The notes below the pieces were generated by a model, which ran no database searches, was not told the origin of the DNA, and saw nothing but the letters and a program-made list of their open reading frames with translations. A program made the translations under genes and the position numbers. A DNA stretch of 37,035 nucleotides from a bacterium (GTDB lineage Bacteria; Bacillota_I; Bacilli_A; RF39; UBA660): contig JAUNNO010000007.1 in NCBI GenBank assembly GCA_030531425.1, positions 1 through 37,035 of the forward strand. Reading direction: 5' to 3'. Below, one piece after another: positions 3,258-26,806 of the stretch (its first letter is position 1; every line of letters starts with the position of its first letter).

Positions 3258-4111
3258 TACCTCTGTGCCTCTCTATCCATATTACGATTTAATATTTCTA
3301 AATCATAACAATTTATTACTGATTGACTTTGTTTATTTCTATCTGTATATGAACTTAATTGTCCTGTTATTCCTACTTTGTCGCCTTCATTTATTTTACT
3401 TGCAAATTCATTAAAAACATTACCCTCAAGCATAACAGAGATAATATTTTTTTTAACTTTACCATTGTATTCATAATTTTGTTCTAACTCTATGAACTCG
3501 GCTTTTAATCCATCTTTTTTAGTAAATTCTTTTCCAATCTTTTTAAGATTACCATCTATCTGAACATAATTTTTATTAAGTTCTATTTCTTGTTCTTCTT
3601 TTTCTTCAAGTATTTTTACAACATCTGCTTGTTCTTTTTGTTTAATATTAAAACATTTATTAAAGACATCTTTATATGGTATTTCTTCTACATCTTCTAA
3701 AAACTTATGATACTTACTACTTTGATTTATAAAATCTCTACAAGAATCAAAATTACTTTTGCTACCACAAGTTATGTATGTAAGTTCTTTACCTGTATCA
3801 AATAGTTCATTATTTAATTTTACATATCTATCTTTATCTGCATTATATATGCAAATAACATTTCCATCTTCACAAAATGAAATTGAGCCATATTTGCAAT
3901 TACCTAATTCACTTTCTAGCAAATTATCAAAGTTTATAAACTCATCTTGATTTTTATCTGATATAGGTTTTAAGTAATTACCATCTGGTGTTGCAATAAC
4001 ACTTTTTGAATAACCATTGATAGATAAATTATTAACTCTATCATATTCTGGACTTTTATATTTATTTACAAAATCAACAATCTTATTGAATAATTTATCT
4101 TTTATACTCAT
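3257..4111 (-). CDS. Conjugation-operon protein with C-terminal OB-fold (SSB-like) domain
   Basis: 284 residues. The N-terminal ~170 residues are not recognised and hold several Cys. The C-terminal ~110 residues (from about residue 175) end in a segment (FASKINEGDKVGITGQLSSYTD...) that has the strand pattern of single-stranded DNA-binding OB folds, where 'GD.V.I.G.L' precedes the last strands. It overlaps VirB4 by the ATGA of 4108-4111. A role in handling the transferred strand or in holding it near the channel is an inference; the domain may also bind something else. Confidence 0.65.
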   Translation of the reverse strand: MSIKDKLFNKIVDFVNKYKSPEYDRVNNLSINGYSKSVIATPDGNYLKPISDKNQDEFINFDNLLESELGNCKYGSISFCEDGNVICIYNADKDRYVKLNNELFDTGKELTYITCGSKSNFDSCRDFINQSSKYHKFLEDVEEIPYKDVFNKCFNIKQKEQADVVKILEEKEEQEIELNKNYVQIDGNLKKIGKEFTKKDGLKAEFIELEQNYEYNGKVKKNIISVMLEGNVFNEFASKINEGDKVGITGQLSSYTDRNKQSQSVINCYDLEILNRNMDREAQR

Positions 4112-6615
4112 GATAATTTATCTCCCATTAACTCTACTTCATTAGGTATAGCAGTAATGTGTGTCCTAATTCTTAGGTTATTAGATACAGTCAGTAAGAA
4201 ATCACCTTTGGTAGCTTTAAGTAAAAAATCTTGTTGAGTTTCTGTTAAAGGATTTTCATAAAATAGATTTAAATATGTATTTAAATCATCACCTTTAAGC
4301 ATTCCAACTAATTGATACTGACAATTATTAAATATTGCTGTCGCACTTCTTACTGACTCATTATCTCCAATAAAGTCATGTATGCTTTGAGTAGCAGGCA
4401 TAAAATTACCATAATATTTTCTTATTCTTCTTGCTAATTGTTCAAATGATAACATAACATCACTATCAGTATTTTTTAAATATAAGTGCATTTCATCTAC
4501 TACTATTGATAGATAATGTAAATCTTCTTTTGATGTATATTTTTCATTTTCAATTTGATTTGCTACCACTATATTATTTAAGTAAGATAATAAATTAACT
4601 AACTGAGTAGTAGTTATTCTAGGATTTTTTGAATACAATAAATCCTTAATATTAAAAGCAATTAAATTATTATTTAAGTTTACTGATGTATATCCATTGA
4701 ATAACATATTATCAATTCCTACATTAAATCTATCTAATAATATTTCTACTTTATCAATTATTTTTAATTTTTCTTCATTAGTAATTAACTTTTTATAATC
4801 AGGAAGATAAGCAATTAAATCACTAAAAGTAGGATAATCAGTATTAGAAAATTTTTCTAATGTAGATATTTCAGTTTTTTGAGTAATACCAAAAACACGA
4901 TATAAGTGTTCTATCATATCTATTAATACAACTACTTCTGCTTCTTTAATATCTTCAAATGCACATTTAATAAATGTTTCTAATGATGCTAAATGTTTTG
5001 CTAGAGGACATTCACTATGATTAATTCTTTCAACAAATTTGTCAGTCCTTTCTTCTTGATCTGATGGTAAATATCTTACTTGTAATGGATTAATTATTCC
5101 ACCACTAGTAGAATATAAATCTATATACTCGCCATTATTTCTATCAACTAATTTTTTATATTCACCCTCTGCATCAAAAATAAAAACTCTATTTCCTCTT
5201 GCAAGTTCATTTACAATTAATTTTTTTAATGTAAAACTTTTACCACCACCACTAGAAGCTATAATAGCAAGATTACTTGATATTCTTTCATCAGTTTGTT
5301 TAAACATATCAAAGAATAACGGAAGTTCAGTATGAGTATCTCTTCCTAACATATAACCTTTTTCATCATTAAAATATGAAATAGTAAACGGAAAAGATGC
5401 TGCTAATGTAACGGTCGGCATATAGATATCATAATCTTCTAACATCATAGGATTTATATCAAATGCTTGCCAACTTTCATATTGTCTTAATCTCGGTATT
5501 TCTAATTTAATTTTATTTACCATTGCAATATTTTTCATTTCCTTAATCTTTTCTTCTCGTTCTTCTTTTGTTCCACATACAACTGCTATGACATTAATTT
5601 CTTTTAATTTTTCATCACCATTTTTTAATTGATTCATTAATTCTTGCATATTCTCTTTATCAGCATCCATCTTGGTTGCCATAGATAATTTTCTTGTTGT
5701 AAGTCTTTCAGATAATAATGTTTCATAATTACTATCTATACTTCTAATAGCATTTTCAGTATTAACTGAATCTTTCATGTGAATACAAAATCTTGTATTA
5801 GGAGTATTAAATAATTCTTCTAAAAACAATTCATCTACAAATGGTGGAATATTTTTTATTGCAACAATTTGTATTTCTTCATCATCTAATCTTATTGAAC
5901 TCATATTTTCCCTAATATAAAAAGGTGCAATCAATTCTATTAAATCGCACCATAATAATTGTTCTAAATCAGCACTAGACATATATAAGTTAATTAAAAA
6001 CTGATATACTTCTAATTTATTATTTATTTCTTTTATATTTAATTTTGGAGTCATATTATAACAATGTATCTTAATATCTTCGGCTTGATGTAAAATTAAT
6101 TTATCATTATTTGATACTAATACAAAGTAATACATACTAGTAGTGCTTAATTTATCACTTTCTAGTTCTAGTATTTTTTCATACTTTTCAGTTAAAAAAT
6201 TAACTTTATGAGGATCATCTTTATATTTCTCAATTAATCTTAAATAATTATCTTTATTTGAATTTAAATCAAGCATATCATCTAATTTATACATTCTTAA
6301 ATCTAAATTTTTAATTTGAAATAAATACTTTAATTGCTCAAAAAAGTTTCGTTTCTGAATATTACTTGCAAGAGATAAATCAAGAGCATCTATTGCAAAA
6401 ACTTTTGCATAATAACCATTTTTCAATGTAATTAATCCATCTTCTTTTACATAATCAAGACTTATAAAACTTTGAGCATTTTTTACTTTATCATCTAATA
6501 TTCTTTTATTAATATATTTATTAGATACTTTATTTTTTATTTTTTTATTTTTATAATTCATTAATAATTTATCTTGTTTTTGTTTTAATTTTATATCTTT
6601 ATTATTTGATTCCAA
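4108..6615 (-). CDS. VirB4/TraE-type conjugation ATPase
   Basis: Cytoplasmic ATPase that powers pilus/channel assembly and substrate transfer in type IV secretion. At 835 residues it has normal VirB4 length. Walker A is SSGGGKS at about residues 454-460; Walker B is the IVVDEMH stretch near residue 690; the ARRIRKYYG segment following it is typical of the family. The start appears to be TTG at 6615, with GGTGA seven bases ahead and inside the end of the PrgI-like gene; the next ATG (residue 19) has no ribosome site. It sits between the VirB3-like gene and the OB-fold gene, as in other Gram-positive elements. Confidence 0.93.
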   Translation of the reverse strand: MESNNKDIKLKQKQDKLLMNYKNKKIKNKVSNKYINKRILDDKVKNAQSFISLDYVKEDGLITLKNGYYAKVFAIDALDLSLASNIQKRNFFEQLKYLFQIKNLDLRMYKLDDMLDLNSNKDNYLRLIEKYKDDPHKVNFLTEKYEKILELESDKLSTTSMYYFVLVSNNDKLILHQAEDIKIHCYNMTPKLNIKEINNKLEVYQFLINLYMSSADLEQLLWCDLIELIAPFYIRENMSSIRLDDEEIQIVAIKNIPPFVDELFLEELFNTPNTRFCIHMKDSVNTENAIRSIDSNYETLLSERLTTRKLSMATKMDADKENMQELMNQLKNGDEKLKEINVIAVVCGTKEEREEKIKEMKNIAMVNKIKLEIPRLRQYESWQAFDINPMMLEDYDIYMPTVTLAASFPFTISYFNDEKGYMLGRDTHTELPLFFDMFKQTDERISSNLAIIASSGGGKSFTLKKLIVNELARGNRVFIFDAEGEYKKLVDRNNGEYIDLYSTSGGIINPLQVRYLPSDQEERTDKFVERINHSECPLAKHLASLETFIKCAFEDIKEAEVVVLIDMIEHLYRVFGITQKTEISTLEKFSNTDYPTFSDLIAYLPDYKKLITNEEKLKIIDKVEILLDRFNVGIDNMLFNGYTSVNLNNNLIAFNIKDLLYSKNPRITTTQLVNLLSYLNNIVVANQIENEKYTSKEDLHYLSIVVDEMHLYLKNTDSDVMLSFEQLARRIRKYYGNFMPATQSIHDFIGDNESVRSATAIFNNCQYQLVGMLKGDDLNTYLNLFYENPLTETQQDFLLKATKGDFLLTVSNNLRIRTHITAIPNEVELMGDKLS

Positions 6616-16811: not shown

Positions 16812-17246
16812 ATGAATTCTAACAGATTATTTTTTATTAGAGAAGAATTGGATTTGACGCAAGACCAATTAGGTGAAATTGTTAATACTACTCGTGTATC
16901 AGTAAGTAGATGGGAACATAGTCAAGAAATAATTCCAATTAGAAAAGCAAATATTATTTCAAATAAATTCAATTATAGTTTAGATTATATGTTCTATTTA
17001 TCTAATGTTAAGCATTATAACAATTCAAGAAGTGAATTAAATCTAAAATTAATTGGAGAAAGAATTGCTAAAATTAGAAAAGACAATAACTTAACATTAA
17101 GAGATCTAGCGAATAAACTAGGAACATCTTCATCTACTATTAGTGCTTATGAAACAGGTAAAACTTTAATGCTTACAGCTTTTGCATATCAAATGTGTAA
17201 AGAATATAATCTTTCAATGGATTGGCTATATGGGAAAATAGACTAA
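16812..17246 (+). CDS. Tandem XRE regulator
   Basis: 144 residues with two XRE-type helix-turn-helix domains in one chain: residues ~5-58 (REELDLTQDQLGEIV...SLDYMFYLS) and ~80-143 (KDNNLTLRDLANKLG...SMDWLYGKI). Each ends in the 'SLDY/W-aromatic' helix typical of ICE and phage XRE repressors. The ATG at 16812 with AGGTGAT ahead is taken; longer frames run through the divergent promoter. It is divergent from a small membrane gene and precedes the small-RNA unit. Confidence 0.82.
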   Translation: MNSNRLFFIREELDLTQDQLGEIVNTTRVSVSRWEHSQEIIPIRKANIISNKFNYSLDYMFYLSNVKHYNNSRSELNLKLIGERIAKIRKDNNLTLRDLANKLGTSSSTISAYETGKTLMLTAFAYQMCKEYNLSMDWLYGKID

Positions 17247-17287: not shown

Positions 17288-17316
17288 TTGATTTTTATAT
17301 TAATCTATTTTATAAT
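17288..17316 (+). promoter_or_regulatory. Promoter of the three-hairpin small RNA
   Basis: TTGATT (17288-17293), 17-base spacer, TATAAT (17311-17316); the start would be near 17323, exactly at the first hairpin. Confidence 0.65.
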
Positions 17317-17322
17317 TATATT

Positions 17323-17477
17323 GTCAGTCAGGTAGTAAGTAGTAGATGACTGATGAATTAAGTATCAATTATTAAGAGTGCCTTTATAATTGATATGTAG
17401 TAAACATCAGTTATGTAGTAATGTAGTATTATAACTGATGAGCAGTAGGACAACCGCTAGTATAGGGTTGTTTTTTT
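17323..17477 (+). ncRNA. Candidate structured small RNA, three hairpins plus terminator
   Basis: About 155 bases between two tandem-XRE genes. Hairpin 1: tcagtca (17324-17330) with tgactga (17347-17353). Hairpin 2: tatcaattat (17363-17372) with ataattgata (17386-17395). Hairpin 3: catcagttat (17405-17414) with ataactgatg (17431-17440). A terminator follows (caacc 17451-17455 with ggttg 17466-17470, then seven T). Loops 1 and 3 each hold two GTAGTA copies. No ribosome site with a reading frame is seen. It could also act as a leader of the next XRE gene if transcription reads through. Confidence 0.65.
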
Positions 17478-17590
17478 GTGCCTTATTTATAATACAATTA
17501 TATTATACTCTTTTTAAAAATAATAGTCTATTTCCCCTAGAAAAATAATATTTCCACAAGTTGATGAAATAATAATTCTAGGTGGTAGTA

Positions 17591-18031
17591 ATGATTATTA
17601 AAAGGTTAAGAGAAAGTCGTGAATTATTGGATCTTAAACAAAAGGAAATAGCTGAAATATTAAAGGTAGATTTTACAACTGTTTCAGGATGGGAAACAGG
17701 TAAAGATACTATTCCATTAGAAAGATTAATTGAATATGCAAATAGATTTAATTATAGTTTAGATTATTTATTTGGTATAACTAAACAAAATACTGAATAT
17801 GATAATTTAAAAATAAATTTAGAACTAATAGGTAAAAATTTAAGAATATTAAGAAAGACAAATAATCTAACACAAAAAGAAGTAGCAGAAAAAATTAATA
17901 CAAATCAGTCTGCTTATGCTCACTATGAAAATGCTATTAATTTAATACCTACTACATTCTTATACAATCTAACAAAAATATATAAACCTTTTTCAATTGA
18001 TATGTTATTAGGTAGAAAGAAAAAACAATAG
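17591..18031 (+). CDS. Second tandem XRE regulator
   Basis: 146 residues with two XRE domains: residues ~4-57 (RESRELLDLKQKEIAEIL...SLDYLFGIT) and ~75-140 (RKTNNLTQKEVAEKIN...FSIDMLLGRK). It has the same two-domain plan as the gene at 16812 and is probably a diverged duplicate. The ATG at 17591 has AGGTGG five bases ahead. It ends in a hairpin shared with the convergent receiver gene. The pair likely works as paired repressors of the element. Confidence 0.82.
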   Translation: MIIKRLRESRELLDLKQKEIAEILKVDFTTVSGWETGKDTIPLERLIEYANRFNYSLDYLFGITKQNTEYDNLKINLELIGKNLRILRKTNNLTQKEVAEKINTNQSAYAHYENAINLIPTTFLYNLTKIYKPFSIDMLLGRKKKQ

Positions 18032-21229: not shown

Positions 21230-22051
21230 CTACCACCTTTTACTTTTATTAACGACAATAGCTTTTTCCTTTGAAATTAACTTACTCCTTACATATATAG
21301 CAGGAGAAATTGTAATTATGGTATTTACAGATTTTTTAGCAGCTGTCGAATCAATAATATCTATTTTCTTTTTTTCATTATCATCCATTTCCTCATAATT
21401 TTTACCATCTGAATATTCTAATGATATCTCTTGTTTAGAAAGAAATGGAAGTAATCTTTTATCATAAAAATTATGAATGGCTTTATTTGCTTTTTTATCA
21501 TCATCAAGCAACATTATTTTGAAGAACTCATTTGCTAAATCTATACTTTCATTAGTTGTTTTATATCTATTCTTTTCATACTCTTCAATAATTGTATCAA
21601 ATGAGTTCAAAAGAAATTCTATGTCTATGTTAACCTTATCTGGAATAGTATAATTTTCTATTCCTTTTTCTTCAACTGTCATTACAAAAGAACTAAACTT
21701 GAATTTTTCTTCAAATAATTCTAATTGTTTATTATATTCATCTTCTTTATCATTTTTATATAGAAGATATAAATACAATTCGTTTGCTTTCTCATCATCA
21801 GGAGAAAAAGCTAGAAACCTTGATATTTCAAGAATAGCAATAAAATAATTTTTGTCTTTTATTAAATCAATTGTATTATTAAAATATTTATATTTTGAAA
21901 AAATAATACTTTTAAAATCTTTTAAATTATATCCACATGCCGAACATTTTTTATCTTTACTATCACATAGATTTCCACATGATGGGCATTTAAACTCAAT
22001 TAAATTTTTTTTTGCTGAATATACATTCAGAAACGACATATCTTTCATCAT
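21230..22051 (-). CDS. Zinc-ribbon helical protein of the Hsp70 operon
   Basis: 273 residues. An N-terminal zinc ribbon has Cys22, Cys25, Cys36 and Cys39 (CPSCG, CSACG). Residues ~50-190 are helical and may be TPR-like. The last 50 residues look like a small beta-rich tail; its end (YVRSKLISKEKAIVVNK) has a hydrophobic rhythm a little like the GrpE tail, which is too weak to claim. It overlaps the Hsp70 stop by ATGA, so the two are translated together. A co-chaperone or adaptor role is inferred from place. Confidence 0.8.
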   Translation of the reverse strand: MMKDMSFLNVYSAKKNLIEFKCPSCGNLCDSKDKKCSACGYNLKDFKSIIFSKYKYFNNTIDLIKDKNYFIAILEISRFLAFSPDDEKANELYLYLLYKNDKEDEYNKQLELFEEKFKFSSFVMTVEEKGIENYTIPDKVNIDIEFLLNSFDTIIEEYEKNRYKTTNESIDLANEFFKIMLLDDDKKANKAIHNFYDKRLLPFLSKQEISLEYSDGKNYEEMDDNEKKKIDIIDSTAAKKSVNTIITISPAIYVRSKLISKEKAIVVNKSKRW

Positions 22052-24513
22052 GCTTTACTTACCAATCCATTAAATAAAGCATTATTTGTTGATTCTTCTG
22101 GTAATTCTGCCATAACTAATTGATATAATCTAGCTGTTAATGAAACAAGTCTATCAGCATCATCAATCATCTCTGGATCATTATCATTTTCATCATATTT
22201 TTTCATAATTTCATCAATTTCTTTAAAATGAATATTTATTTCATTGTTAATTGCACTCTTTAATGAAGGACTAGTATTAGGATCATCTAACGCTGCTAAT
22301 GAAAATCCAAGAATAGCACTTACAATACCTTTAATTTGCGCAAAATATTTCTTAGGATTTGAAATTAAATCTACAGAACTCTTCATAGATAACAAATTAT
22401 CCATACACTTTTGAGCTTCAACCATGTTATCTTTCTTTAAATAACGTTTTCCATAAAAACATTGGTTATCTACATCAAAACTAGATATTTTACTATCATC
22501 TGTAAGTTTTTCTTTAATATCATTTGCAATTTCATCAAATTTTTCTTCAGTTAAAACAGGTGCTGATGGAAGCTCTGATATTGTTTTTTCAAATTTTTGT
22601 GCAACATTGGCATAATGAGTTTCATCATTATTTGCTTTTGCTTCTTCTAATTCTCTTACAATATCTTCTTTTTGACTAATTATTCTATCTTTTTCTTCAT
22701 CATTATCAACATATCTAATGCGTTCTTCGAAAATTTCTTCATAATTTTCAGTTTCTTCAGAATCAATTTGTTCTTGAGTTATATATTCATATCTTCCTTC
22801 TAATTTCTTACCATCCATATCAACTGAAAGTGTAACATTTGAAATAGTATCAACTGTTGTAGTAACAGATAATTTATTACCAATCTTTGCATCATTTGGT
22901 AAATCAATTATAAAATTAAAGATTTTTCGAGTTCCTTCCCAAATTGGTAAAATAATTTGTTTATTACTATATTCATTTATTTTAAAAGTTTCAGTTGTTT
23001 TACTTGGTAGATAAGTTCCTTCATAAACAATTGGAAATTGTTCAGTTTTTCCTTTTTCTACATCAATAATTGTAACAGCAATAGTTTCATTTTGAATTGG
23101 AGTTGGAGCAATTATATCAACATTTCCATCATTTACAGTAGATAATTTATTAATACATTCTTCACCATTAAATAAATTTAATTCTTGATTATTATAATTT
23201 TTCTCATCTATTTCCAAAACAAATGTATTATCTTCATCTACTTTAGCAAATACTGGTTCATCAATGTCAATAGATACTTTTGTAATCTTTCCTTTTTCTA
23301 TTTTGCCAGAAACATAAACTTTTCCATCAATTGAATAAGTAGCATTCATTTTTACTAAAATATTATTTTTTTCATCTTCTAATGAATATCCATTAGAGTT
23401 TGCAACAAACGCAGCACCTGCACTTACAGATAAGTCAGGTTCATAAATAGTTACATCCTTTAATAAATCAGTCTTACAATAATGATCTTTAATAACCTTT
23501 TTTACATATGGAATTTTTGTAGAACCACCAACCATTAAGATATGAGTAATATCACTTATAGTTTTACCATGGTTCTTTTCTAGAAGTTCTAATGCTTTAT
23601 CACATTCTTTAATAATATCTTTTTCAACTTTATCTTTAATTAAATCATCGAATTGTTTTCTAGTAAAATCATCAATAGATAGTTCTATGCCCGTATTATC
23701 TTTAAAAATATCAGGAAAATATATATTATATGAATCATTAACACTTAATTGTTTCTTAACATTTTCCGCAGCAAACATTAATAATCTAAATTTCTTATCA
23801 TCTGCTGAAACTTCTATATCATCTACATTATTACCTCTTTTTTTCAATTCCTCTAAAAAATAACGAGCTATTATAGAGTCAAAATTATCTCCACCTAGGA
23901 AATTATTACCAGCTGTTGCTAAAACTGTTGGAATATTTTCAGTTTTTTCAAGAATAGAAACATCAAATGTACCTCCACCTAAATCGAAAACAAAGAATAA
24001 ACCATTCTCAATATTATTTGAAACAGCATAATTAATAGCTGCAGCTGTTGGTTCTTCTAACAACATTTGAACTTCTAAGCCAGCCAATTCTCCAGCTTTT
24101 CTAGTAGCATCTTTTTGTGCTAGATTAAAATAAGCAGGAACTGTTATAACAACCTTATCATAAACAACATTTTCTTCTTTACCAATAGTATCAATCAAAC
24201 ATTCTTTACAATAATTAATAATTTTTGAAGAAATATCTTCGGGTGTATATTCTTTTTCTCCAAAATTTATTGTTGTTTTCTTACCCATTTCACGTTTAAT
24301 ACTTTTTTTAGAATTAGTATTACCTGTATAAAACTCGTTTTTGGCTAATGTACCATATACCTCACTGCCATTTTTTCTTACAGCAATAATAGATGGTATA
24401 GTTTTATTTTTTCCAGGATTTTCTTCCGCATAAATTACTTTTCCATCTTTAATAATAGAAGCAGTACTATTTGTTGTACCTAAATCTAATCCAAAACTCT
24501 TGTGTATTATCAT
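22048..24513 (-). CDS. Non-canonical Hsp70 (DnaK-like) with altered linker and C-terminal part
   Basis: 821 residues against about 600-640 for DnaK. The ATPase domain (1 to ~380) is complete: GLDLGTTNS (8-16), KREMG (73-77), VPAYF (125-129), EEPTAAA (153-159), DLGGGTFDV (177-185) and VGGSTKIP (328-335). The DnaK linker (VLLLDV) is only faintly echoed, with charged residues in it (ILVKMNATYS near 385). The ~190 residues after it are beta-rich, and ~240 acidic helical residues follow. So it is likely an active ATPase with a non-standard substrate or partner side. AGGAGG precedes the ATG. It lies between the AAA gene (11-base gap) and the zinc-ribbon gene (ATGA overlap). Confidence 0.93.
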   Translation of the reverse strand: MIIHKSFGLDLGTTNSTASIIKDGKVIYAEENPGKNKTIPSIIAVRKNGSEVYGTLAKNEFYTGNTNSKKSIKREMGKKTTINFGEKEYTPEDISSKIINYCKECLIDTIGKEENVVYDKVVITVPAYFNLAQKDATRKAGELAGLEVQMLLEEPTAAAINYAVSNNIENGLFFVFDLGGGTFDVSILEKTENIPTVLATAGNNFLGGDNFDSIIARYFLEELKKRGNNVDDIEVSADDKKFRLLMFAAENVKKQLSVNDSYNIYFPDIFKDNTGIELSIDDFTRKQFDDLIKDKVEKDIIKECDKALELLEKNHGKTISDITHILMVGGSTKIPYVKKVIKDHYCKTDLLKDVTIYEPDLSVSAGAAFVANSNGYSLEDEKNNILVKMNATYSIDGKVYVSGKIEKGKITKVSIDIDEPVFAKVDEDNTFVLEIDEKNYNNQELNLFNGEECINKLSTVNDGNVDIIAPTPIQNETIAVTIIDVEKGKTEQFPIVYEGTYLPSKTTETFKINEYSNKQIILPIWEGTRKIFNFIIDLPNDAKIGNKLSVTTTVDTISNVTLSVDMDGKKLEGRYEYITQEQIDSEETENYEEIFEERIRYVDNDEEKDRIISQKEDIVRELEEAKANNDETHYANVAQKFEKTISELPSAPVLTEEKFDEIANDIKEKLTDDSKISSFDVDNQCFYGKRYLKKDNMVEAQKCMDNLLSMKSSVDLISNPKKYFAQIKGIVSAILGFSLAALDDPNTSPSLKSAINNEINIHFKEIDEIMKKYDENDNDPEMIDDADRLVSLTARLYQLVMAELPEESTNNALFNGLVSKA

Positions 24514-24524
24514 ATTTTTTCCTC

Positions 24525-25805
24525 CTAAACTTCCATGTTTTTAAATTCGTACATTTTATCCATATCTTGCAATGATACGGAAGATTTTATACTCTTTAAA
24601 ACTTCAACACAATCTTCAAAAGTTATTAAATAATTTTTAATATTATCTATTTCTTTGCTAATAACCTTTCTAATCAAACATTCACTTATTTTTTTAATAT
24701 CAGCTCCATTATAATTATTAGTTGCTGAAGCCAAATATTCTAATATATCTTCTTCTACTTTAATAGAAGATAAGTTTTTTTGAAACATTTTTAATCTTAG
24801 TTTTTTATCTGGCAATTCAATGCAAATTAATGAATCAAATCTTCCAGGTCTTAGCAAAGCTGAATCAATATCCCAAGGTCTATTAGTAGCAGCAATAACT
24901 AAAACTGTTTGATCATTTTGTTCAAAACCCTGCATTTGAGCTAAAAGTTCTGGAACAATAGTTTCTGCAGTTAATTCAGCTCCTCTTTTATCTCTAGATA
25001 CTCCGATTGATTCAAACTCATCAAAGAAAATAACGGAAATATCATGCTTTCTAGCATCTTCAAAAAGTTCTTTTACTTTATTTTCTGTATCTCCAAACCA
25101 TTTTGACTTTAAATCAGAAGATTTAATTGAAATAAAATATGCATCAATTTCATTTGCAACAGCTTGGGCAAACATTGTTTTTCCAGTACCTGGTAAACCA
25201 TATAATAAAATTCCACCGCCTAATGAAATATCATATTTTGAATATATATCCTTATATAAAATAGGATCAATTATTTTTTCTTTGACTTTTCGTTTTGCTT
25301 CATCTAATCCAATTAAATCATCAAACATTGGATAAATTTTATCTTTTTTTATACTGCCATCATCTACAAAATTATTAAATAAATCAATATAATAATTTAT
25401 TAAATCCTCTTTATTTTCAAATTTAACAACATCATAAGCATTATTTAAAATCACGCTATATTTTTCAATAATATTTTTAATTCCTTTATAAAAACGTAAT
25501 TTATTCCAATCTTTTGAATTGTAATCTTCATTTAAATATTGTTTACATTCAAATATCAATTCATACATTTCTTTTTTATGTAAAGAAATATAATACACTT
25601 TATTATCTACATTTGAATTAACTTTTTCATAATTAAATAAGAAAATCGAAAAATTTAATAAATAGCAAAATGCTATACAATCTAATTTTGTATCATTAAA
25701 ATATTGTTTAGAATCATTAATAATATTATTAAACCCAATATCATTGCATGAGGTACTAAAATACTTTTCAGCTATGATCAAATAATAATTATTTTCTTTC
25801 TCCAT
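24525..25805 (-). CDS. Cdc48/Vps4-class AAA ATPase
   Basis: 426 residues. An unrecognised helical N-domain (1-160) precedes one AAA module: GLPGTGKT Walker A (203-210), a pore-loop-like KWFG (235-238), Walker B IFFDEFE (259-265), sensor 1 AATNRP (305-310) and Arg fingers in LLRPGRFD (Arg319, Arg322). These are the marks of classic AAA ATPases (Cdc48, Vps4, katanin group), which form hexamers that thread or remodel proteins. I start at the ATG at 25805; the longer frame covers the promoter. It is the first gene of the Hsp70 operon. Confidence 0.92.
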   Translation of the reverse strand: MEKENNYYLIIAEKYFSTSCNDIGFNNIINDSKQYFNDTKLDCIAFCYLLNFSIFLFNYEKVNSNVDNKVYYISLHKKEMYELIFECKQYLNEDYNSKDWNKLRFYKGIKNIIEKYSVILNNAYDVVKFENKEDLINYYIDLFNNFVDDGSIKKDKIYPMFDDLIGLDEAKRKVKEKIIDPILYKDIYSKYDISLGGGILLYGLPGTGKTMFAQAVANEIDAYFISIKSSDLKSKWFGDTENKVKELFEDARKHDISVIFFDEFESIGVSRDKRGAELTAETIVPELLAQMQGFEQNDQTVLVIAATNRPWDIDSALLRPGRFDSLICIELPDKKLRLKMFQKNLSSIKVEEDILEYLASATNNYNGADIKKISECLIRKVISKEIDNIKNYLITFEDCVEVLKSIKSSVSLQDMDKMYEFKNMEV

Positions 25806-25827
25806 ACATATCACACCCACTATAATG

Positions 25828-25869
25828 ATTATATAATATTTTTGCAAATCCTACAATATTTCGGCAAAA
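25828..25869 (-). promoter_or_regulatory. Promoter and dyad ahead of the AAA-Hsp70 operon
   Basis: TTGTAG (25856-25851), 17 bases, TATAAT (25833-25828) on the minus strand. An imperfect dyad, ttttgcaaat (25840-25849) against atttcggcaaaa (25858-25869), surrounds the -35, as an operator would. The CIRCE heat-shock element (TTAGCACTC-N9-GAGTGCTAA) is not seen here. Confidence 0.5.
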
Positions 25870-26092: not shown

Positions 26093-26806
26093 TTACAGAT
26101 TATTTTCCCATTCTTCCCACAATGATGAATAATCAAAGTTAAGCAAACGAATATTATTTTTTATCGCACCTTTAAAATAACCATACTTATTCTTTATTTC
26201 ATTTCCATCTTCATCAAGATAATGATTACTTTTTAAACGACATAAAATATAATGAATTATAGTAATTAAATCTCCATACGAATTTTCTTCTAGTAATTCA
26301 TTAAATAAATTATCATAATAATACAAATTAATATCATCTTCATTTATATATTTTCTATCTATTAATTCTATTGTTAATCTATTATGTTCATCAGCATTAA
26401 AAAAAGAAGATTTGGTTTTATCTTCTTTATCTATTTGTTTTTTATTATTTATTATATTAGTATTTATTTGTGTGTCCTTTTCGGTATGCCCTTCTACCGC
26501 ATACCCTTTTTGGTTATACGGTATTTCATATATTAAATAATCATAATCAAATCTTCCATTTTCTAATTGCTTTCTTTCTCTAACTAAATATCCGTTATCT
26601 TCTAGTTCTTTCAATGTAGTTCTTATTGCTTTCATATTTTCTTTACTTATACTTGCTAATCCCTTTACTGAATAATCCCAATCATCTGGTAATGATAACA
26701 TAAATGATAATAAACCTTTTGCTTTATAACTTAAATTTCTATCTCTTAAATGATAATTACTCATTATAGTATAATTATCGTTTTTTTCAATCTTAAAAAC
26801 TGACAT
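26093..26806 (-). CDS. Replication initiator / DnaD-like protein of the element
   Basis: 237 residues. The N-terminal ~100 residues (YTIMSNYHLRDRNLSYKAKGLLSFMLSLPDDWDYSV...) are a winged-helix domain well known from replication-initiator and primosomal proteins of Gram-positive phages and ICEs. The C-terminal part (about 145-237) is helical and ends in YGYFKGAIKNNI...., as in DnaD-like domains that load helicase. It has a perfect GGAGGTGAT site and lies at the element's right end. It would support replication of the circular form. Confidence 0.85.
   Translation of the reverse strand: MSVFKIEKNDNYTIMSNYHLRDRNLSYKAKGLLSFMLSLPDDWDYSVKGLASISKENMKAIRTTLKELEDNGYLVRERKQLENGRFDYDYLIYEIPYNQKGYAVEGHTEKDTQINTNIINNKKQIDKEDKTKSSFFNADEHNRLTIELIDRKYINEDDINLYYYDNLFNELLEENSYGDLITIIHYILCRLKSNHYLDEDGNEIKNKYGYFKGAIKNNIRLLNFDYSSLWEEWENNL

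Follow-up and report, generated by a model that had tools for sequence, protein, structure and literature searches.

A predicted small RNA of a conjugative-like element belongs to a family displaying repeated GHAGUA motifs and may act as a protein sponge

The DNA analysed here, called the window, is the whole stretch of 37,035 nucleotides. From its sequence, positions 17323-17477 are predicted to form an independent small RNA that has a promoter and a terminator of its own, and this prediction is supported by relatives that share its architecture. We give about even odds (roughly 0.5) to the reading that it is a hairpin-type member of a mobile-element small-RNA family that acts like CsrB/RsmZ, titrating an RNA-binding protein through a GHAGUA motif (H = A, C or U).

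Anatomy and predicted fold of the window RNA

The unit lies between two tandem-XRE genes and consists of the following parts.

16812-17246, plus strand: upstream tandem-XRE regulator gene with two HTH_3 stretches; counterpart in genome G034, 41.5% identical
17288-17316, plus strand: sigma-70-type promoter TTGATT-17-TATAAT (TTGATT 17288-17293, TATAAT 17311-17316)
17323-17352, plus strand: hairpin 1, stem CAGTCA/TGACTG (17325-17330/17347-17352), loop GGTAGTAAGTAGTAGA (17331-17346) with two GTAGTA
17363-17395, plus strand: hairpin 2, TATCAATTAT/ATAATTGATA, loop motif-free, flanking stretches with AAGTA and TGTAGTAAA
17405-17440, plus strand: hairpin 3, CATCAGTTAT/ATAACTGATG, loop GTAGTAATGTAGTATT
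17441-17449, plus strand: linker AGCAGTAGG, equivalent of the GTAGTAG linker of the family
17450-17477, plus strand: terminator ACAACC-GCTAGTATAG-GGTTGT-T6 (17450-17471 plus T6), stem covarying, loop conserved
17582-18031, plus strand: downstream tandem-XRE regulator gene (XRE2), ATG 17591 a likelier start than GTG 17582; counterpart in G034, 42% identical

The original prediction had proposed this promoter, three hairpins with a terminator, and paired GTAGTA copies in two of the three loops. All are present, the promoter at 17288-17316, the hairpins at 17325-17352, 17363-17395 and 17405-17440, and the motif pairs in loops 1 and 3. The predicted RNA is 155 nt long. Taken alone, the promoter is no more than chance would give in this AT-rich region, where 26 promoter-like sites were found against 26.1 in shuffles. 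A simple terminator scan of the window did not call the terminator at 17450-17477, because its rule admits loops of 3-8 and the loop here is 10. The folding energy of 17288-17477 is -52.2 kcal/mol against -33.5 +/- 3.5 in shuffles (z -5.35). For the 155-nt RNA, the global minimum (-47.6) pairs hairpin 1 with hairpin 3 and is nearly equalled by a local four-hairpin fold (-45.8) when the pairing span is limited to 50.

Nowhere else in the 37-kb window, whichever strand is read, are the motifs as dense as in this unit. GHAGTA occurs six times, about six-fold more than in shuffled sequence (0.93 +/- 0.96; 1 of 2000 shuffles reaches six), and AGTA nine times against 4.2 (11 of 2000 shuffles reach nine).

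A family with a shared architecture

Searching other genomes for the motif, as the original prediction had suggested, recovered related units, 15 in all with the window unit. Three are in the genome of the window (C87, the window unit, and C88 and C22 on contigs 88 and 22), 11 are in nine further genomes of its bacterial family (G023, G151:C3, G151:C10, G189, G351, G215, G106, G309, G034, G093:C6 and G093:C67), and one (L101) is on CAMVQZ010000035.1, labelled uncultured Clostridia bacterium. Eight are array units on a GTTGTTAG stem, in which one loop is expanded into an AGUA array (C88, C22, G023, G151:C3, G151:C10, G189, G351 and L101); the other seven are hairpin-type. C88 and C22 carry 15-16 AGUA copies, most of them enclosed by a single long stem.

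These searches used draft genomes that sample the bacterial family rather than exhaust it. The pattern AGTA(N4AGTA)3 was found in 5 of 386 genomes of the bacterial family (15 matches against one for the reversed control), and a terminator pattern in 17 of 291 (23 matches against one in the control). A covariance model, R1, trained on nine units, matched 25 of 319 genomes at E <= 0.01, including 12 sites in nine genomes at E <= 5.3e-9. G215 and G034 (strong) and G093:C6 (weaker) were new to this model, and G151:C3 and G351 resemble its training rows. Some pattern and model matches are not small RNAs: several belong to ordinary genes whose terminators share the loop, and a few are chance matches inside or beside coding regions. 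A search beyond the family, over 203 genomes of the class, matched three genomes, all in the same family. Among the matches listed for a five-copy array pattern, most are simple repeats, and a stem or terminator lies near 1 of 116 stretches in genome contigs (L101) and 0 of 120 in viral contigs. Terminator and stem patterns gave no match in viral contigs, nor did blastn of the window and C88 units against plasmids and phages.

Rfam release 15 gave no match at gathering score at the window, L009, L301, L326, L337, L340, L101, L349, L352, L371, L353, L358 or L333; this cmscan left out units G023, G151:C3, G189, G351 and C22, and L101 gave only a tRNA elsewhere in its contig. At a relaxed threshold, only weak eukaryotic matches far under the gathering scores appeared. 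A literature search at the level of abstracts found no description of this RNA, and the family is apparently undescribed. Thousands of candidate microbiome RNAs are reported in the supplements of PMC8040213, and the family may already be among them.

From 5' to 3', a hairpin of variable sequence, a GUAGUAG-type linker and a terminator follow one another in the 14 units with an intact 3' part (the G189 unit is cut by a contig end, so that 3'-part counts cover 14 units). In the window the -10 box ends 6 bases 5' of the first hairpin, and it does so in all 14 relatives examined (15/15 units), with a spacer of 17 in 13 of 15; the predicted RNA would therefore begin with a hairpin. Against random positions in the same loci, this promoter placement has a combined p of about 1e-22, with hairpin starts assigned by hand from folds and sequences. 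In 14/14 units the end of a hairpin with 6-13 Watson-Crick pairs lies 0-3 nt from the linker, and 11 distinct 5' arms occur among them; depending on the unit, 0-28% of random positions perform equally well. The terminator combines a covarying stem with a conserved GCUAGUAYAG-type loop. In nine units 98.4% of the stem cells are paired, three of seven pairs are changed on both sides, and the covariation score is reached by 0 of 500 shuffles. The original prediction had proposed to look for covarying stems in relatives, and these are found. Other parts recur as well: 5' hairpins opening GTCAG like window hairpin 1 occur in G215, G093 (two units) and G309, and the window loop 3 (GYAGUAAUGUAGUAU) sits on differing stems in G215 and G093:C6 (GYAGTAATGTAGTAT).

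Units hold 3-17 AGUA copies, often in pairs 8 nt apart and mostly as GHAGUA. Of 117 AGTA copies in eight units, 91 have G at position -2 and one has G at position -1; the commonest spacing is 8 nt. AGUA is unpaired more often than the remaining sequence in 14/14 units. Across seven aligned arrays (G151C10 left out), columns of AGTA and G(-2) are variable in 2 of 58 cases against 10 of 39 for other array columns (Fisher p 0.003). The G023 array lacks exactly one 8-nt unit in its tandem part; array units gain and lose whole repeats, and therefore candidate binding sites.

Direct repeats enclosed by an inverted repeat, close to genes for relaxase and coupling protein, could also mark an operator array, an iteron or an oriT acting as DNA rather than RNA. 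This reading is very improbable, given that promoter and terminator placement is fixed, the stems covary, the period is 8 nt rather than 10-11 nt, and hairpin-type units exist. A same-strand gene often follows the unit, as would be expected of an attenuator in the leader of that gene. Yet no alternative pairing is conserved, the array stem stays constant while the terminator stem changes, and the genes downstream are unrelated, which leaves this explanation highly improbable.

Several further observations concern promoters and terminators. Most array-unit promoters, and those of G309 and G034, carry a second CGAC(A) about 11 bp downstream of TTGAC(A/T), inside the spacer, a possible regulator site. 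At L323, L324, L325, L327, L328, L331, L338 and L341, terminators AACAACTGCTAGTAYAGRGTTGTT (or close) follow element genes, with no AGTA arrays. The CUAGUA-type loop is thus recurrent among terminators and may belong to them as such instead of serving as a binding site, which counts against the sponge reading. A second type of small RNA or leader may be present at about 1300-1530 in L353 and L358 (minus strand) and L333 (plus strand). It combines a hairpin at the 5' end with a conserved AACCATTTTACTKTA segment, its terminator has the CUAGUA loop as well, and in L358 and L333 it adjoins conjugation genes.

Genomic setting and the flanking tandem-XRE genes

The window is contig 87 of a 98-contig, 1.3-Mb genome. 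It resembles a conjugative element, as it holds a VirB4/TraG-like ATPase (4108-6615) besides the two tandem-XRE genes around the RNA, and most units of the family are located in such elements. At the array loci G351, G023, G189, G151:C10 and C22 the RNA lies directly 3' of a coupling-protein gene; at C88, whose coupling protein and relaxase were identified by Pfam, two genes separate them, and the G151:C3 array follows another element gene. The coupling-protein gene was matched in 81 of 291 genomes, with an array within 1.5 kb at four of the 30 loci examined. An element in G227 is 95% identical to the C88 element over 5.9 kb and has no RNA at that place, so the RNA is accessory and dispensable. 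A homologue of window gene 26093-26806 (54-58% identity; HTH_36) lies convergent to the unit in G215, G093:C6 and G106, and the G309 unit is flanked by genes of housekeeping appearance, which we take to resemble prs and murI.

Cargo found after array units includes an EF-Tu-type GTPase fragment (L047 15519-15883, Pfam) that resembles ribosomal-protection genes, and a hexapeptide acetyltransferase (L052 2195-2860, Pfam); genes of these kinds can have a role in resistance. In the window, HSP70-like and AAA ATPase genes are adjacent at 22048-25847, and intergenic inverted copies of TTTACTACACCAAAC with further palindromes at 1920-2110 could be an oriT.

The loops had been proposed to imitate the ribosome-binding region of XRE2, so that the RNA would titrate a repressor of the XRE2 message. 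The start-region sequence GGTGGTAGTAATG was located at 17581-17593, GTAGTAATG is common to loop 3 and the XRE2 start, and a single other genus (G034) repeats the XRE-sRNA-XRE order, with proteins about 42% identical. However, the site is not conserved: G034 keeps the gene order, yet its XRE2 start reads AGGTGGAATATATG. Among the five closest XRE2 homologues of nearly full length (59-72% identity), none has the small RNA and only G011 has AGTA between Shine-Dalgarno and start; in the G168 homologue, AGTA lies just inside the gene. GHAGTA occurs within -20 to +3 at 10 of 233 starts, the leading 4-mers there do not include AGTA, and most other family members do not adjoin an XRE2-type gene. The proposed imitation is not supported, and we consider it very unlikely.

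Alternatively, the flanking XRE proteins might bind the RNA themselves, with two motifs 8 nt apart matched to two HTH domains, so that the RNA would titrate the element's own switch. The gene order in the window and G034 and the single-HTH XRE genes adjoining the units of G215 and G106 are in its favor, and Aca2 is a precedent for an RNA-binding HTH repressor. Array units, however, are located elsewhere in the element, G309 is flanked by housekeeping-like genes, and the conserved stretch 5' of XRE2 homologues is TATTTCCCC, not GTAGTA, so this idea is rather unlikely. The TATTTCCCC-like stretches in other genomes are a likely XRE operator; in the window, CTATTTCCCC and TATTTCCAC lie 5' of XRE2 at 17524-17560.

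A possible sponge for an RNA-binding protein

Many unpaired and often paired-spaced motifs, on changing stems and in copy numbers from 3 to 17, favor a protein sponge. Under this proposal the unit would be transcribed into an RNA whose 5' end is sealed in a hairpin, whose loops and linkers would display 3 to 17 AGUA copies, and whose closing terminator would carry the same motif in its loop. Several copies of an RNA-binding protein would bind it in the manner of CsrB/RsmZ, and production of the RNA by the element would free the messages that this protein occupies. Titration of a regulator by the window RNA is plausible from its sequence, and a flanking tandem-XRE regulator may be the partner, a candidate by position only.

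RNAs of the CsrB/RsmZ type have an intrinsic terminator and the motif placed in loops. Like CsrB/CsrC and RsmX/Y/Z, the present RNAs are short and repeat a single short motif many times on hairpins, in variable number; the CsrB/RsmZ type is thought to bind several protein dimers, and RsmZ is described as a protein sponge. Many unpaired copies on a variable scaffold (3-17 AGUA) are likewise found here, save that GHAGUA is absent from the penultimate loop of three units. These units (G309, G034 and G093:C67), with only 1-3 copies in all, suit the sponge reading poorly and weaken it. The family differs from CsrB/RsmZ in its motif, GHAGUA and not GGA (the sole GGA of the 155-nt RNA is at 17448, in the linker), in being carried mostly by conjugative elements, and in that no CsrA was found in the genome of the window. 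In that genome (G000, 94% complete) neither the CsrA profile PF02599, positive in control genomes, nor the Hfq profile PF17209 gave a match, and either protein is unlikely as the partner.

Other repeat-bearing RNAs offer partial parallels. TRAP and HutP target RNAs carry UAG-type repeats at regular spacing, shorter than 8 nt; the regularly spaced UAG-containing motifs are shared, whereas the spacing here is 8 nt and the RNA is a small RNA instead of an mRNA leader. Type III toxin-antitoxin RNAs (ToxI) have repeats of about 35 nt with pseudoknots; they share tandem repeats, promoter, terminator and mobile elements with our units, whose repeat is 8 nt and whose downstream genes vary from member to member, with no type of gene at a constant downstream position.

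Repeated unpaired seeds would also fit an antisense RNA whose GUAGUA copies pair with UACUAC in messages, and multi-seed small RNAs are known. Against this, TACTAC occurs in 1 of 233 gene start regions (1.0 +/- 1.0 shuffled) and TACTDC in 4 of 233 (1.9 +/- 1.4), and Hfq, which is not always needed, was not found in the genome; we regard antisense pairing as unlikely. GTAGTA itself is weakly enriched near gene starts (11/233 against 5.0 +/- 2.4 shuffled; GHAGTA 22/233 against 14.2 +/- 3.4), which is compatible with a regulon, although the starts include homologous genes and are not independent.

The conserved architecture alone, whatever the partner, defines a small-RNA family unrecognised by any Rfam 15 model. 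More tentatively, we suggest as a possible but doubtful extension a Csr-like axis on a new motif, in which a protein reading paired GHAGUA loops would control messages in this bacterial family, one genome of which was tested and gave neither CsrA nor Hfq, and conjugative elements would carry expandable sponges (up to 17 AGUA) overriding that control during transfer. A tagged copy of the RNA would allow a direct search for the partner protein. If the sponge reading is true, the RNA would offer a way to reach an RNA-binding regulator in bacteria with small genomes where the usual candidates were not found, and mobile elements would retune that regulator through an expandable motif array.
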